Positions 3,181 to 10,505 of a stretch of DNA of 20,090 nt are shown here, in pieces. Each line of letters starts with the position of its first letter. The stretch's first letter is position 1. Position numbers and translations under genes: made by a program. The notes under the pieces were generated by a model. That model was not told where the DNA came from, did not search any database, and saw nothing but the letters and a program-made list of their open reading frames with translations. The DNA is from a virus, in the IMG/VR virus record IMGVR_UViG_3300021138_000218, positions 1 through 20,090 of that record; one strand, given 5' to 3'.

Positions 3181-3430
3181 TTGTGAACTTCTTTCCTTCT
3201 TCCCAATACTTGATCATGCGACTAACATCTTCCATACGTTCTTGTACAACATGTGGAGCCGCACGTTCTAATTCTTTTAAATTATGATAACTAGGATAAT
3301 GGCGTAAGCACCGACGAGCGTCCTCGCGTATTTTTTTTGAAACACGTGGAGTCTTTTTTGGATCTAATAGACTTTCTAAAAACTCTTCAGTTCGCTGTAT
3401 GCTTCTAAATCGTTCGTCAGGTAATGTCAT
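3170..3430 (-). CDS. BPSL0761-like small protein
   Basis: I place the start at the ATG at 3430, giving an 86-residue protein beginning MTLPDERFRSIQRTEEFL. A GAGG lies about nine bases upstream, and the N-terminus matches the MT-x-P-x-ER-x-R-x-(3,4)-T-x-EFL pattern I know from BPSL0761-family proteins. A GTG two codons earlier (3436) is also possible. The RRCLRHYP segment (about 40-47) is the second family hallmark. The family is found in bacteria and phages and has no established role. It is helical, highly charged and likely a nucleic-acid- or protein-binding accessory. It overlaps the end of the DpdA-like gene by 14 bases, so it is translated with it and could be an accessory to that enzyme; that is inference. 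Confidence 0.75.
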   Translation of the reverse strand: MTLPDERFRSIQRTEEFLESLLDPKKTPRVSKKIREDARRCLRHYPSYHNLKELERAAPHVVQERMEDVSRMIKYWEEGKKFTNEN

Positions 3431-4973
3431 GTACACTAGCCTCTAAATCATCGAGTTTATCGGAGACTTCGTCATCAAAGTCTGGCTCTTCTTCTGATTT
3501 TACAGGATCTACATCCACTTCGTCAAATAGTTCGAAGTATTTTGTTGTGGCATTAACTGTTCGTTTTCCAGTATAACCACGTGTTCCGGGAATAGCCATC
3601 CAGAATTTACTAAATTCTTCAATAATAGAGTCGGCGGTTCCTCGATCACTTGTGGCAAATATAGCTTCGATAACGTCTTTTACATATAATCTATCAAACT
3701 TTTCTTGAACTAACATAGTTGGACACAATCCGGCATCATATTGACGATTGGCTTCCTGTACAGCATTGATATGCATCCAAACATTATGGCCCATCATGAT
3801 AGCATAAGTGAAACTATCCCAACTAGTCTTGCCTACTTTACCAATTTTGTTAACATCATTTGGTCCGTATATGCAGATTTCATTTACTTTAACACCATCC
3901 ATGATAGGACTTGTTTCAAAATTAGAAAAATGTTTATCTTGCACTACTACATCCTGAAATAGTCTCGTGTCATTTTTGTATTTTTTATTATCAAGTGAAG
4001 GTAACATACGATATAACCATTTTTCTCTATCTTTAATTTCTGTTTGTACATAAATCTGTCCATTAGCAGTTGCTAAGAACGGACTTGCACAGTCAAAACT
4101 AATAGTAAAGTCGCTGTTATGATACTTACGAACTGCACGTTGTATATCTGTTAAGATTAATGCCCATTCGAGTTTACTAGTTCCTAAGAAGTGCATCCAA
4201 TCTTGTTCACCTTTTTCAAGCAATCCATCAAACCTTAATGCCACTAGACGTTTTAGAGTCAAGTGAATGTCGCACATGTTTTGCCCGCCCATGCCCCAAC
4301 CATTAAAATGACGACCAGGATATTGTTTTGGATCACAGTATTTCTTCATATGCTGATACCAACCTTCTGCATCGGTATGATTTTCACCTTGCAGTACGTT
4401 TAAGAACTTGCAATTACCATTACGATTATTAATAAAGTAATCATTATTAATAAATGTAGCGTTTACTGCTTCTGCGTATGTACTAATACCAGTAGCTTTA
4501 GCACCTGCCGGACTACGAGCAACCCACGCTGGAACATCGAGGCACATACCATAATCCATAAGTGAATCCATCCACTTAAGAACGGCTTCACGTTTCTTCT
4601 GTGCCTTAGGACAGTTAGGATTTTTCCAGTCACCTTCCCACTTACCTTTACCAATTTGGAAGCCACCTGAATCACCTAGCACCCAACTAGTCGAGCGATT
4701 GCGATTGCGGAACATGTCTTCGCTAGGATCGGGTTTATTCAAATCTAAATTAGCATGACCTGCACTATACAAACAATGGTCATAGTAAAATGCCGCATTA
4801 GGATCTAGATAATTCATAGCTTCAATCCCCATAGGGCCAAAGCTAGCAGGAATACGTGCTGGATCTACATAAGGTCCAAATCGTTGCTTGCCTATATAAG
4901 TGCTATAGAATCCTGATGTTGCCGGCAGGAAGTATGCGTAATCGTTTTGTGTAGCTGTTAAATTCTTATTCAT
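3417..4973 (-). CDS. dpdA-like: Guanine transglycosylase-like protein (TGT/DpdA type)
   Basis: The 518-residue product shows landmarks of the tRNA-guanine transglycosylase fold: DSGGFQ (101-106; bases 4656-4673), LDVPAW (145-150), a LQGENH loop (194-199), GWGMGG (225-230), a FLGTSKLEW segment like the TGT RYLMG region, and FDCASP with D294 (bases 4092-4094). In TGT the aspartates of DSGGFQ and FDC are catalytic, and both are kept. The CxCxxC...H zinc site of TGT is not evident. Phage homologues (DpdA) insert 7-deazaguanines into DNA, so DNA base exchange is the favoured role, with tRNA as the alternative. An acidic tail (about 480-518) is unlike TGT. The ATG at 4973 is chosen because it forms a TAATG overlap with the upstream stop; a TTG at 5006 would add 11 residues. 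Confidence 0.7.
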   Translation of the reverse strand: MNKNLTATQNDYAYFLPATSGFYSTYIGKQRFGPYVDPARIPASFGPMGIEAMNYLDPNAAFYYDHCLYSAGHANLDLNKPDPSEDMFRNRNRSTSWVLGDSGGFQIGKGKWEGDWKNPNCPKAQKKREAVLKWMDSLMDYGMCLDVPAWVARSPAGAKATGISTYAEAVNATFINNDYFINNRNGNCKFLNVLQGENHTDAEGWYQHMKKYCDPKQYPGRHFNGWGMGGQNMCDIHLTLKRLVALRFDGLLEKGEQDWMHFLGTSKLEWALILTDIQRAVRKYHNSDFTISFDCASPFLATANGQIYVQTEIKDREKWLYRMLPSLDNKKYKNDTRLFQDVVVQDKHFSNFETSPIMDGVKVNEICIYGPNDVNKIGKVGKTSWDSFTYAIMMGHNVWMHINAVQEANRQYDAGLCPTMLVQEKFDRLYVKDVIEAIFATSDRGTADSIIEEFSKFWMAIPGTRGYTGKRTVNATTKYFELFDEVDVDPVKSEEEPDFDDEVSDKLDDLEASVHDIT

Positions 4974-5326
4974 TATTGTACCAAATGTTGTGCTATTACC
5001 ATACAACTAAGCCAAATCCATAAAGTGTTAAAACCTACTAGTGTAGGTAATGCTTTCTTTTCTGAAACCCATATAAGCATAGCAGATGTAAAAAGTGTAA
5101 TAAAATATAATTGCCATATATTTAGACCAAATACAAGACCGGGAACAATTACTATTGCCTTGGCAAACCAACTAGCCGCTTCAACAATGTTATATGAAGT
5201 CCAATAGTCTTTGCGAAACCAATTAGAATAACATTCTCGGATTGCCGTAAATGTAATGTGATTATAAATCACAAATACAATAACCGATGTAATTATTGAA
5301 GCGAATAGTATTTGATTCAATGACAT
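4973..5326 (-). CDS. Small four-helix membrane protein, unknown function
   Basis: The 117-residue protein is almost entirely hydrophobic, with four likely transmembrane segments at about 5-23, 48-68, 70-87 and 93-113. They are separated by short polar loops, including SNWFRKDYWTSY (34-45), which should be cytoplasmic by its positive charges. There is no cleavable signal peptide and no motif I recognise. The start codon overlaps the clamp gene stop by one base (TAATG), and its own stop overlaps the DpdA-like start in the same way, so it is coupled between them. It could be a membrane anchor, transporter-like or host-envelope protein; the sequence does not decide. Confidence 0.75.
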   Translation of the reverse strand: MSLNQILFASIITSVIVFVIYNHITFTAIRECYSNWFRKDYWTSYNIVEAASWFAKAIVIVPGLVFGLNIWQLYFITLFTSAMLIWVSEKKALPTLVGFNTLWIWLSCMVIAQHLVQ

Positions 5327-6882: not shown

Positions 6883-9552
6883 TTAAAACTCGAATAAACT
6901 GTTAAATGTATTTTTTTCTTCTGTGCTCCCTAAGTCCCATTTAAGCACACTAATTAAGTTCTCTAACTTTTTGTCGATAATTGTAGCTTCCATTTCTGCA
7001 TGTTCAAAAGGTAAATCTTTAAACCATTGTGGGAGACGTAGTTCATCCACTGGATAGGCTACACTTGTAAAACCCATAGCGTTTTGCTTGAGCTTACAGA
7101 CGATAACTTTTTGTCCGTCTGTAATAGACATGCTGTATTTGTCATTGAACATACGTTTTAGCGTATTCCAATTGATACTAGCACGAACGTGTCCAGGCAT
7201 ATTAGCCTTACCTGCTTTGGCTTCTTTAGCTTGGTAGTCGGTAATGTTGTTAGCACGTTTAGGGCTACCTTTTTCCCAACCAGGACGAGCTTTGAAGCGA
7301 ATTCTAAATTCACTAATGTGATCTAATACTGTTTGTTCATCGGCACCGGTAAGAACCATTTCCAAAACTTCACTTAGGAAGTCTTGAATAAATTCCGGCG
7401 TATCACTACGTTTTAGATCCAAGCCCATGGCTTTTATCTTACCTGGTTTGCCTTCTACATCTGTACGTTTGCCTTCTTTATCAAAATACAAAACAGCATA
7501 ACGCTTTTTAGTAATGAACAATCCTTTAACAGCGACAATTTCTCGACCTGCTTTAATCACTTCTCCACGTGTTTTAGGACAGTGGAATGTGTCTAACATA
7601 AACTGTGGAAAAGTAGCATTTACTTCTTCACCGATAGTGTCATACAATTGTATCACTGTTTCTTTTGTCCAAGGAATCTTGCCGGTTTCAATGTCCTTCT
7701 GTAAAGTGCGATGAGCACTAAAATAACAACTATCAGTATCACCATAAATTACTGCCTTTCCTCTATGATCGTAATCACCTGTAATAATTTCATTCACTTT
7801 ACCGGCCATATGTCGCACAATTTGTCGACCAGTTAGTGTAGTAGATTGACCAATGCGCTTATCAAAAAATCTACATCCACTGTTAAGAATAGCGCCATAC
7901 AAACTATTAAGATTAATTTTCTTAACAAGTTGACGCTTGTCCCAATATTCTTCTTCGACTTTGTTCCCAGCTTTAATTGCATCTTTTAATTTGGCCTGCA
8001 TTTCCTTGCGTTCTGCATACCACCTTTTCAATAGCCCTGGAATTATACCTTCTTTTTCATAGGTGAAGATAGTACCGTTTGCTGAAAGCACCCAAGGCTG
8101 ATTGCTTTCAAAAATCAATCTATATACTTCGGCGGCACTTAGTATATCGCTATCTCCATTTTCCCAATCAATAGTTATATCAGTGCCGATTTCTTGATTC
8201 ATTACTGCTGTATATTCTAAACTACCGAAAATACCTTCCCACGATGCCGCAAAACTATTACCTTTAGCCATCTTATCTTCAATAAACTCTTCGGTTAATG
8301 TTTGACGCAGTTGTCCTATAATAGTTTCTGGGCCCATATTAAGCGCACGAATAGCTGAGGGATATAGACTGTTAATGTCTAATGATCCGATCCAGTCATG
8401 TATTCCTTCTTTAGGCACCGCAACATAAGCACCAGCCGCCGCAGTATCGTCATCTCGTTCGCTCATCTTAGTACGATTAGGAACTTGGAAACCTCTGCGA
8501 TGTGCTTCGTTAATAATAGCTTGTTCTGTAACAGCTACCGCGCCCATTGTAGTTTGTAGCAATACTGTATTTTCATGTGCCAGTGTATTGGCAAGATCCA
8601 TGAATTTTAGTTTCTTATCTAAATCGTCAAGAAGTTTACAGTCATTGATGTTGTATTCAACGAATGTCTTAAAGTCATTGTTGTATAATTGATCTAGTGT
8701 ACCTTCGTACTGTGTCTTACGCTTGCCTAATTCGTATTCGGCAATAGCATCCAATCTGTAACTGTGGCGTTCTTCATACGTGTATTTGCGATACAGTTCA
8801 AGATAGTCTAAATGAACGCGACCAATATAGTCATAGGTTACACTATCTCGACCAAACTTTTCATATTCACGGCGCTTAGGTAACTGATCAAACAAACAGA
8901 ATCTGCGTGTATCATCTTTGCTTAAAACTTTTGTTACTCTATTTGTAGTGTAAGGTACGTCAAACCCTTCACTGTTCCAACCACTAACGACATCGGCATC
9001 TTGTATTAGATCTAAAAACATGTTTAACAATTCTGCTTCATTGTCAAACAAATAGACATTTGGAAAATCTTTAACCATTTCTTTAGCATCTTCCATCTTA
9101 AGATTTTTAGGTGGAATAGCCATACATACCATAGTTTCTAACCATTGTAGATAGACAGCAATCGCAGTAATCGGCATAAATGCATCATCAGGTGATGCAT
9201 AGCCACGTTCTGGATCAAAGTCTACCTCAATATCGAAAAACGCTACATTTAGTTTCGGAGCATCTTGATTTAAGTAGTGTTCACTTAGTGTTACAAAGAT
9301 TGGATTAATATCTGATTCAAACAGTTCTTTACCACTGTTGATAGCTTGTTCTTTGCGTAATTCTTTTGTGTTTTTACAGACTATACGTGATAACGTATCT
9401 CCGTAAATTGAAGTGAATTTGCCTCTTGGGTCTTTTACATAGAACGTGTGTTTGACAGGAATGTCTCGAAATTCACGTTCACCTTTCTTATTTCGTTCAA
9501 CCACTTTAACGATATCGTTCTCGCGGTCAAACCACGCATCTACGTAACTCAT
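6883..9552 (-). CDS. 43: DNA polymerase, family B (T4 gp43-like)
   Basis: The 889-residue length matches T4 gp43 (898). The 3'-5' exonuclease is intact: FFDIEVD (D107, E109), GFDVPY (D198) and NINDCK (D304). The polymerase domain has motif A LDINSLYPS (D392), motif B KKINLNSLYG (544-553) and motif C YGDTDS (603-608, D605 and D607). The protein ends NTFNSLFEF, a hydrophobic tail resembling the RB69/T4 polymerase C-terminal peptide that binds the sliding clamp; the clamp gene is two genes downstream. The ATG at 9552 is preceded by AGGAG at a six-base spacing, directly after a 6-bp hairpin that could be a translational operator. There are no inteins and no split. Confidence 0.97.
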   Translation of the reverse strand: MSYVDAWFDRENDIVKVVERNKKGEREFRDIPVKHTFYVKDPRGKFTSIYGDTLSRIVCKNTKELRKEQAINSGKELFESDINPIFVTLSEHYLNQDAPKLNVAFFDIEVDFDPERGYASPDDAFMPITAIAVYLQWLETMVCMAIPPKNLKMEDAKEMVKDFPNVYLFDNEAELLNMFLDLIQDADVVSGWNSEGFDVPYTTNRVTKVLSKDDTRRFCLFDQLPKRREYEKFGRDSVTYDYIGRVHLDYLELYRKYTYEERHSYRLDAIAEYELGKRKTQYEGTLDQLYNNDFKTFVEYNINDCKLLDDLDKKLKFMDLANTLAHENTVLLQTTMGAVAVTEQAIINEAHRRGFQVPNRTKMSERDDDTAAAGAYVAVPKEGIHDWIGSLDINSLYPSAIRALNMGPETIIGQLRQTLTEEFIEDKMAKGNSFAASWEGIFGSLEYTAVMNQEIGTDITIDWENGDSDILSAAEVYRLIFESNQPWVLSANGTIFTYEKEGIIPGLLKRWYAERKEMQAKLKDAIKAGNKVEEEYWDKRQLVKKINLNSLYGAILNSGCRFFDKRIGQSTTLTGRQIVRHMAGKVNEIITGDYDHRGKAVIYGDTDSCYFSAHRTLQKDIETGKIPWTKETVIQLYDTIGEEVNATFPQFMLDTFHCPKTRGEVIKAGREIVAVKGLFITKKRYAVLYFDKEGKRTDVEGKPGKIKAMGLDLKRSDTPEFIQDFLSEVLEMVLTGADEQTVLDHISEFRIRFKARPGWEKGSPKRANNITDYQAKEAKAGKANMPGHVRASINWNTLKRMFNDKYSMSITDGQKVIVCKLKQNAMGFTSVAYPVDELRLPQWFKDLPFEHAEMEATIIDKKLENLISVLKWDLGSTEEKNTFNSLFEF

Positions 9553-9557
9553 TTTTT

Positions 9558-9582
9558 CTCCTTTGTGATTTTTGGCTCACAA
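9558..9582 (-). promoter_or_regulatory. Operator-like hairpin abutting the gene 43 ribosome binding site
   Basis: On the mRNA, TTGTGA (9582-9577) pairs perfectly with TCACAA (9568-9563) around the eight-base loop GCCAAAAA, and the stem is followed immediately by AGGAG (9562-9558) and the start codon. T4 gp43 represses its own mRNA by binding a hairpin with a 5-bp stem and an 8-base loop at this same place. The position and geometry match; the loop sequence differs from the T4 AAUAACUC. Confidence 0.55.
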
Positions 9583-9620
9583 TTACCAAAATAATCATTT
9601 ATGGCTGATTAAACCTTCTT

Positions 9621-10505
9621 TTAAAAACCTTCTACAGGTCTAAACCATATATGGTCGGGGCAATAATCTTGTTTGTATTCAGGTGTATTTAATGCTGTAT
9701 AAAATAATTCTAAGTCATCTAGGTTAGCTTTCTTAAGATTAATTAATGAGTCTAACCACATTTTTTGTTCTTTAGGTGGATTTCCAAGCTCTAACAATGG
9801 TCTTAAATATGTATTAAGCCATGATACATGCTGTCTTGGAGTAGGATGTCTATCTTCTATTAATAATTTTCCTTTATTGTCTCTAAATCTCCAATTTTTA
9901 TCTGGATTTTCATACGTGTGTTCTGCTATAGGTTTTAACCAATGCTTGGAATTTTCTTTCCATATACGATCGACATAAAAATTATATTGAGGAAAATCAT
10001 TTTCTATTGATATTGATTTGACAAAATTCTCGTCGGCGTGGAATGCGTGCAAATCACTTCCTAACTTAGTAAAATCACCAATACTAGTCATATACCAAGT
10101 ACAACCTGTTGATTTTAGTAACGATATAACTGAAATCATTGCGTTGAGACTATGCATAATGTATGCAGACTCATCAAAGAATTTATCAATCCATTCGGCA
10201 TTAAATACATTCGAGTTATGTTCTGCAAAAATACTTCCAGCGGTTTTCCAATGATATTGATTATCTTTTACGAATTTACAATAATCGTGTCTTAAATGAC
10301 TTGTCCATTGTACAATTACAATATCATCACTATTAATAATATTCCTTGCATGACATTCTGCAACTCGTTCGGCTATACCTCTGCATCCAAGTCCAGCCAT
10401 ACCCCAATTTTGATAATTTTTGTATTCTAGACCGAGGAAGTTTGACCAAGTAGGCCAAGTCACATAAGAGGTATAAGAACAACCAAAGGTAAACAATCGA
10501 GACAT
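9621..10505 (-). CDS. SGNH/GDSL-hydrolase-like protein
   Basis: The 294-residue product starts with TFGCSYT, the block I serine motif (S10). It is followed by NWGMAGLGCRGI (33-44; block II glycine near G36), IVIVQWTSHLRHDY (62-75; the usual block III Asn position is not clearly conserved) and EDRHPTPRQH (217-226; block V histidine, H220). SGNH enzymes are esterases or acetylhydrolases acting on lipids, glycans or peptidoglycan. Phage members often act on surface polysaccharide, but nothing here fixes the substrate. There is no signal peptide, so it acts in the cytoplasm or in the virion. It starts two bases after the dsbA-like gene stops and is followed by the gene 43 leader. Confidence 0.72.
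   Translation of the reverse strand: MSRLFTFGCSYTSYVTWPTWSNFLGLEYKNYQNWGMAGLGCRGIAERVAECHARNIINSDDIVIVQWTSHLRHDYCKFVKDNQYHWKTAGSIFAEHNSNVFNAEWIDKFFDESAYIMHSLNAMISVISLLKSTGCTWYMTSIGDFTKLGSDLHAFHADENFVKSISIENDFPQYNFYVDRIWKENSKHWLKPIAEHTYENPDKNWRFRDNKGKLLIEDRHPTPRQHVSWLNTYLRPLLELGNPPKEQKMWLDSLINLKKANLDDLELFYTALNTPEYKQDYCPDHIWFRPVEGF

Follow-up and report, generated by a model that had tools for sequence, protein, structure and literature searches.

Tandem H-type pseudoknots in the gene 43 leaders of uncultured phages form a putative translational operator of the DNA polymerase gene

In phage T4, translation of the DNA polymerase gp43 is repressed by gp43 itself, acting on a leader hairpin that extends to the ribosome-binding site, and such control of gene 43 is not universal even among T4 relatives (PMC3014915). 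The T4/RB69 operator is a simple, single-copy hairpin with the loop AAUAACUC, situated about 8 nt before the Shine-Dalgarno (SD) sequence in T4. T4 gp32 also represses its own translation, in this case through a leader pseudoknot; the gene 32 operator of T4, T2 and RB69 is a single H-type pseudoknot 67 nt upstream of the start, accompanied by an A+U-rich tract that lacks structure (PMC3014915). The Escherichia coli rpsO (S15) operator likewise contains a pseudoknot and is bound by the product of its own gene (PMC3014915); a reference title in that paper attributes trapping of the 30S subunit to it. The nearest tandem-pseudoknot motif is STAXI (RF01728), which is found in Enterobacteriales near genes for DNA-handling proteins, features UUCG tetraloops and usually three repeats, and is not tied to one start site (PMC2864571).

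The locus described here lies in a window of 20,090 nt, the whole stretch of viral DNA that was analysed (IMG/VR record IMGVR_UViG_3300021138_000218, positions 1 to 20,090). In its target it most resembles the T4 gene 43 operator, in its fold the gene 32 operator, and by the features tested it belongs to neither. Our preferred reading, to which we assign a probability of roughly 0.57, is a tandem H-type pseudoknot serving as translational operator of the phage DNA polymerase gene, with gp43 as its likeliest ligand. A sequence-only reading had reported a 6-bp stem with an 8-base loop against the AGGAG at 9558-9582, and this was borne out to every letter: the minus strand from 9582 to 9558 reads UUGUGA-GCCAAAAA-UCACAA-AGGAG, a perfect stem which the AGGAG abuts, followed after 5 nt by the gene 43 AUG (9552-9550). 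The gene downstream encodes a B-family polymerase matching phrog_262 (E 1e-198). The reported hairpin is, moreover, half of a two-unit element, as a second, equal unit (9615-9592) lies 29 nt upstream with the stem-loop UAAUCA-GCCAUAAA-UGAUUA at 9611-9592, and each unit is preceded by a GGU which can pair with the loop GCC (Table 1). Taken alone, the window hairpin is weak and its significance comes from relatives. Hairpins with a 6-bp stem and 8-nt loop number 11 in the window against 6.4 per shuffle, the folding energy of the leader is no better than that of shuffles (z -0.88), and the stems are A+U-rich, with an alternative favoured by the predicted nested fold.

Table 1. Coordinates of the tandem pseudoknots and the adjoining gene in the window.
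Feature	Position	Strand	Basis
Pseudoknot 1, S1 5' strand GGU, pairs with 9603-9605	9613..9615	-	G-C to A-U compensation in about 8 lineages
Pseudoknot 1, S2 5' arm UAAUCA	9606..9611	-	Covariation
Pseudoknot 1, S1 3' strand GCC, first three loop bases	9603..9605	-	Leader comparison
Pseudoknot 1, A-rich loop 3 AUAAA	9598..9602	-	Loop positions 6-7 invariably AA
Pseudoknot 1, S2 3' arm UGAUUA	9592..9597	-	Covariation
Pseudoknot 2, S1 5' strand GGU, pairs with 9574-9576	9585..9587	-	Leader comparison
Pseudoknot 2 (reported hairpin), S2 5' arm UUGUGA	9577..9582	-	Covariation
Pseudoknot 2, S1 3' strand GCC (loop)	9574..9576	-	Leader comparison
Pseudoknot 2, A-rich loop 3 AAAAA	9569..9573	-	Loop comparison among leaders
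Pseudoknot 2, S2 3' arm UCACAA	9563..9568	-	Window sequence, leader comparison
Shine-Dalgarno AGGAG, 0 nt from stem	9558..9562	-	Spacing 0-3 nt in nearly all relatives
Gene 43, B-family DNA polymerase, 889 aa, putatively controlled gene	6883..9552	-	ORF, phrog_262

Relatives were collected by a polymerase scan of IMG/VR (80 relatives, 86-100% identical), two further scans with the polymerase, which gave 160 loci at 67-75% identity, and a context-free pattern scan, whose pattern matched only members with a loop or stem spacing one base longer and whose 51 good matches every one preceded gene 43. The combined set comprised 289 leaders from related uncultured phages, 185 of them distinct. In these gene 43 leaders, from about 290 phages, each unit follows the order GGY, short linker, stem, GCCNNAAR, stem. 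In near relatives the stem of the reported hairpin differs (UUGUCA, UUGCAA, UUGAGA and others) around a near-constant GCCNNAAR loop, and a second hairpin of identical design lies upstream, with a GGU before each. For 32 distinct leaders, RNAalifold predicted both stems, with double-sided changes in six of nine pairs. Across the 16 pairs of this alignment, pseudoknot included, 94% of combinations were standard against 84% when shuffled, and the covariation of 0.309 (0.114 shuffled) was reached by none of 500 shuffles and stood far above slid versions of the structure. Among 103 distinct single units, 100% of cells were paired against 80.5% when shuffled, a figure owed partly to construction as the parse required stems; their covariation was 0.632 against 0.227, again reached in 0 of 500 shuffles. 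When placed on a FastTree phylogeny of 176 polymerases, the stem pairs had changed 12-42 times each with pairing kept. Conservation of the stem in related phages, the check proposed by the sequence-only reading, therefore holds through repeated compensatory changes, and the stem stands unrefuted.

The pairing between triplet and loop was assessed with a parse in which the 5' triplet was chosen blind to the loop and non-pairable combinations were allowed. All 341 units from the 185 distinct leaders proved pairable (GGU:GCC 307, GGC:GCC 17, AGU:GCU 9, GGU:ACC 6 and AGC:GCU 2), and the combinations AGY:GCC, GGY:GCU and GGC:ACC, though permitted by the parser, occurred in none of them. One of the two AGC:GCU units is doubtful, since the parse in that leader (L268) coincides with promoter-like sequence. 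On the same tree, the first S1 pair moved from G-C to A-U with eight changes of the 5' base and eight of the 3' base; the two changed in step in six of six supported independent contrasts, or eight contrasts when all branches are counted. A farther clade (62% identical; L357, L377) has GAGU:GCUC in unit 2, compensated once more. Taken by itself, S1 is 3 bp long, and because it is so short its covariation (0.129) does not exceed that of slid controls (up to 0.150), while its pairing is 100% against at most 62.5% in those controls; it is the coordinated changes on the tree that carry the case for the pseudoknot. The geometry is of the H type, with a linker of mostly 1-3 nt across a stem of 4-7 bp, 0 nt between the helices, and five loop bases including the invariant AA crossing the 3-bp helix. 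At the third S1 pair, 88 of 103 distinct units (85%) have U-G; the opposite strand would have A-C there, and it is therefore the mRNA strand that acts. Collectively, these comparisons make a pseudoknotted structure at the RNA level close to certain.

The SD starts 0-3 nt past the second unit in nearly all leaders, and one clade (L393-L428) has a single such unit whose 3' arm forms part of the SD, as in CCG-GCCAUAAA-CGG-AG (L393, L405, L406 and L413) and in UCCA-GCCACAAG-UGGA-G. A covariance model found one strong copy per contig, at gene 43, in 16 contigs of 22-105 kb, and a single copy at gene 43 in each of the contigs of up to 230 kb. Over three contigs (297 kb), a pseudoknot descriptor returned 32 matches against 22.7 expected, and only six units, all at gene 43, precede an SD and start codon. 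A descriptor match elsewhere that is common to two contigs (L438 and L441) is protein-coding and was rejected. A scan of genome contigs returned a single stray MAG contig and no host clue.

The element is not universal. A marine clade kept one unit; five of its members (L222, L229, L242, L254 and L259) are without unit 1 and carry upstream another type of hairpin, ACGCC...GGC(G)GGCAUGUAGA, which may be a remodelled module or an unrelated one; GAGUC-hairpin-AUG units in L377, L393 and L405 are similar to it. Several related polymerase genes (L362, L364 and L366) are without the element because an upstream ORF abuts gene 43, and for some related polymerases there is no leader whatever. In L024, L025 and L029, an antisense ORF resembling a DUF723 (PF05265) endonuclease, at 2229-2972 on the minus strand of L025, is inserted directly after the element and start codon; the element remains intact at a distance of about 810 bp from its gene, and gene 43 has another SD. 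This insertion is a natural uncoupling of gene 43 from its putative operator and, along with the absences, indicates that the element is dispensable.

Several features of the neighbourhood may be recorded. A TAAATA resembling a T4 late promoter occurs in 88 of 153 distinct leaders (for example L329, L336 and L340) at a fixed position, in most cases 17 nt ahead of the first GGY, against an expectation of 0.018 per 40 nt; it is absent in the window. Late transcription from it would start about 6 nt upstream of the first pseudoknot. In relatives such as L025, a homologue of the late-transcription regulator DsbA (PF11126; 10508-10765, minus strand, in the window) is directly upstream of the leader. 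In the window, a 294-aa ORF (9621-10505, minus strand) is inserted between the DsbA-like gene and gene 43; it has an N-terminus like that of SGNH hydrolases by eye, had no match in Pfam, PHROG or NCBIfam, and is not at that place in relatives such as L025. A 529-aa ORF (3417-5006, minus strand) is conserved near gene 43 in 20 of 20 contigs and resembles, by eye, queuine/7-deazaguanine transglycosylases, a putative assignment as searches of Pfam and NCBIfam gave no match. Its match is split near query residues 133-147 in several relatives, which suggests either that those copies gained an insertion or that the window copy underwent a deletion.

We propose that each unit folds by pairing GGY with the first three loop bases, (G/A)C(C/U), so that the A-rich loop would cross the short helix, and that the downstream unit, which abuts or contains the ribosome-binding site, would when clamped by its ligand keep the 30S subunit off gene 43. 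An unclamped element would be melted by ribosomes and gene 43 translated. That the element controls translation of gene 43 is very probable; the comparison of leaders shows the helices, the pseudoknot, the acting strand, the cis-linkage to gene 43 and the position at the SD. The likeliest ligand would be free gp43, polymerase outside replication thereby repressing its own synthesis, and two units may allow tighter or cooperative binding; the ligand and the cooperativity are both suggested by analogy. A dedicated element with a single target fits autogenous control.

The sequence-only reading had suggested that this could be a diverged T4 operator. A cis-acting RNA operator at gene 43 has good support, whereas derivation from that of T4 does not, in that the unit is pseudoknotted and usually double, and the gene 43 leaders of T4 and eight cultured large phages do not fit the descriptor. 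True descent from the T4/RB69 operator would account for a cis-acting RNA structure that reaches the ribosome-binding site on the same side of the SD, in the leader of a homologous polymerase gene (phrog_262 directly downstream), with an 8-base loop; the RB49 loop contains UAAA (PMC3014915), and unit 1 here often has AUAAA. However, the T4 operator is a plain hairpin in which nothing points to a pseudoknot (PMC3014915), the UAAC-type loop (UAAA in RB49) is not found here, and the T4 leader matches neither descriptor nor covariance model. That the loop differs from T4 had been noted already; it is GCCNNAAR, dictated by pairing with GGY, and unlike the T4 operator the element has two pseudoknots with the SD 0-3 nt away or overlapped. 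T4 gp43 is 26% identical to the window polymerase, and the leaders of the closest cultured polymerases (Phosso 49%, Atu_ph07 46% and 121Q-like 43% identical), as of the further intermediates CBB and SCTP-2, are without the element, so that we consider such descent highly improbable. On the window sequence alone, the palindrome UUGUGA-N8-UCACAA might also be read as a double-stranded DNA operator of the CRP type, but stems that differ freely (GUCA, GCAA, GAGA, GUAA, GCCG and others) while pairing and loop persist, and that use G-U pairs, refute such a site and leave this reading with practically no weight. A terminator was also rejected, there being no U-run after either stem.

Other alternatives concern what, if anything, binds. 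A different phage or host protein, such as an SSB, a RegA-like repressor or the DsbA-like neighbour, is an unlikely but credible ligand: T4 gene 32 demonstrates that an SSB can use a leader pseudoknot (PMC3014915), and the DsbA homologue sits directly upstream of gene 43. Trans regulators usually have several targets, however, and in whole contigs gene 43 is the sole site of the element, as autogenous control would predict; a search that finds RegA (PF01818) in T4 detected none in 11 large contigs, and one for a gp32-type SSB, run without a positive control, was likewise negative. A structure with no ligand, tuning initiation, acting as a thermosensor or protecting a 5' end from nucleases, would agree with the wide variation in stem G+C and with the TAAATA, which may make the element the very 5' end of the transcript. 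We hold it distinctly unlikely, given that invariant loop adenines, conserved loop length and pseudoknot geometry in two units exceed the needs of simple occlusion, and a sensor of stability would constrain energy rather than loop. Compact pseudoknots adjoining an SD are often small-molecule riboswitches, and preQ1-I and SAM-II are H-type pseudoknots with an A-rich loop 3 at the SD, a likeness which, with the queuine tRNA-ribosyltransferase-like ORF near gene 43, might point to a nucleotide or 7-deazaguanine ligand. This is very improbable: no Rfam riboswitch reached threshold in the window or 20 relatives, the best sub-threshold match (preQ1-II, 16.4 bits against 47) is chance and was not repeated in relatives, the ORF assignment has no Pfam or NCBIfam match behind it, very few unpaired bases are conserved, and the regulated gene is always the polymerase. 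A replication riboswitch of a new RNA family, whose signal would be not gp43 but a metabolite (nucleotide or modified base) or an intermediate of replication, is quite improbable.

Among described classes, the gene 32-type operator shares with the element an H-type pseudoknot in the leader of a replication gene, evident here from compensatory changes in S1 and S2, and translational repression is its known use; the present element differs in lying before gene 43, in being tandem and much smaller, and in having unit 2 touch the SD, with no unstructured A+U tract before the start. STAXI shares tandem pseudoknots, and its covariance model gave no gathering match in the window and 20 relatives. The rpsO operator is unrelated in structure, gene and host, and shares no sequence. 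Rfam gave no match in the window, 20 relatives and three leaders; a sub-threshold match to freshwater-2, aligned mainly on AAGGAGAAAA, was dismissed as chance. A search confined to open-access papers found no description of the element, and its novelty is for that reason provisional.

If our reading is correct, the element constitutes a new RNA family, absent from Rfam. The tandem operator would count as a second and independent one, located at the other classic autoregulated gene of T4, in a widespread group of uncultured phages, and would suggest that replication genes have come under autogenous control repeatedly, by way of different RNA folds. Hundreds of natural variants already perform its mutational analysis, and recognition of RNA by the polymerase would become testable with an RNA of 25-60 nt.
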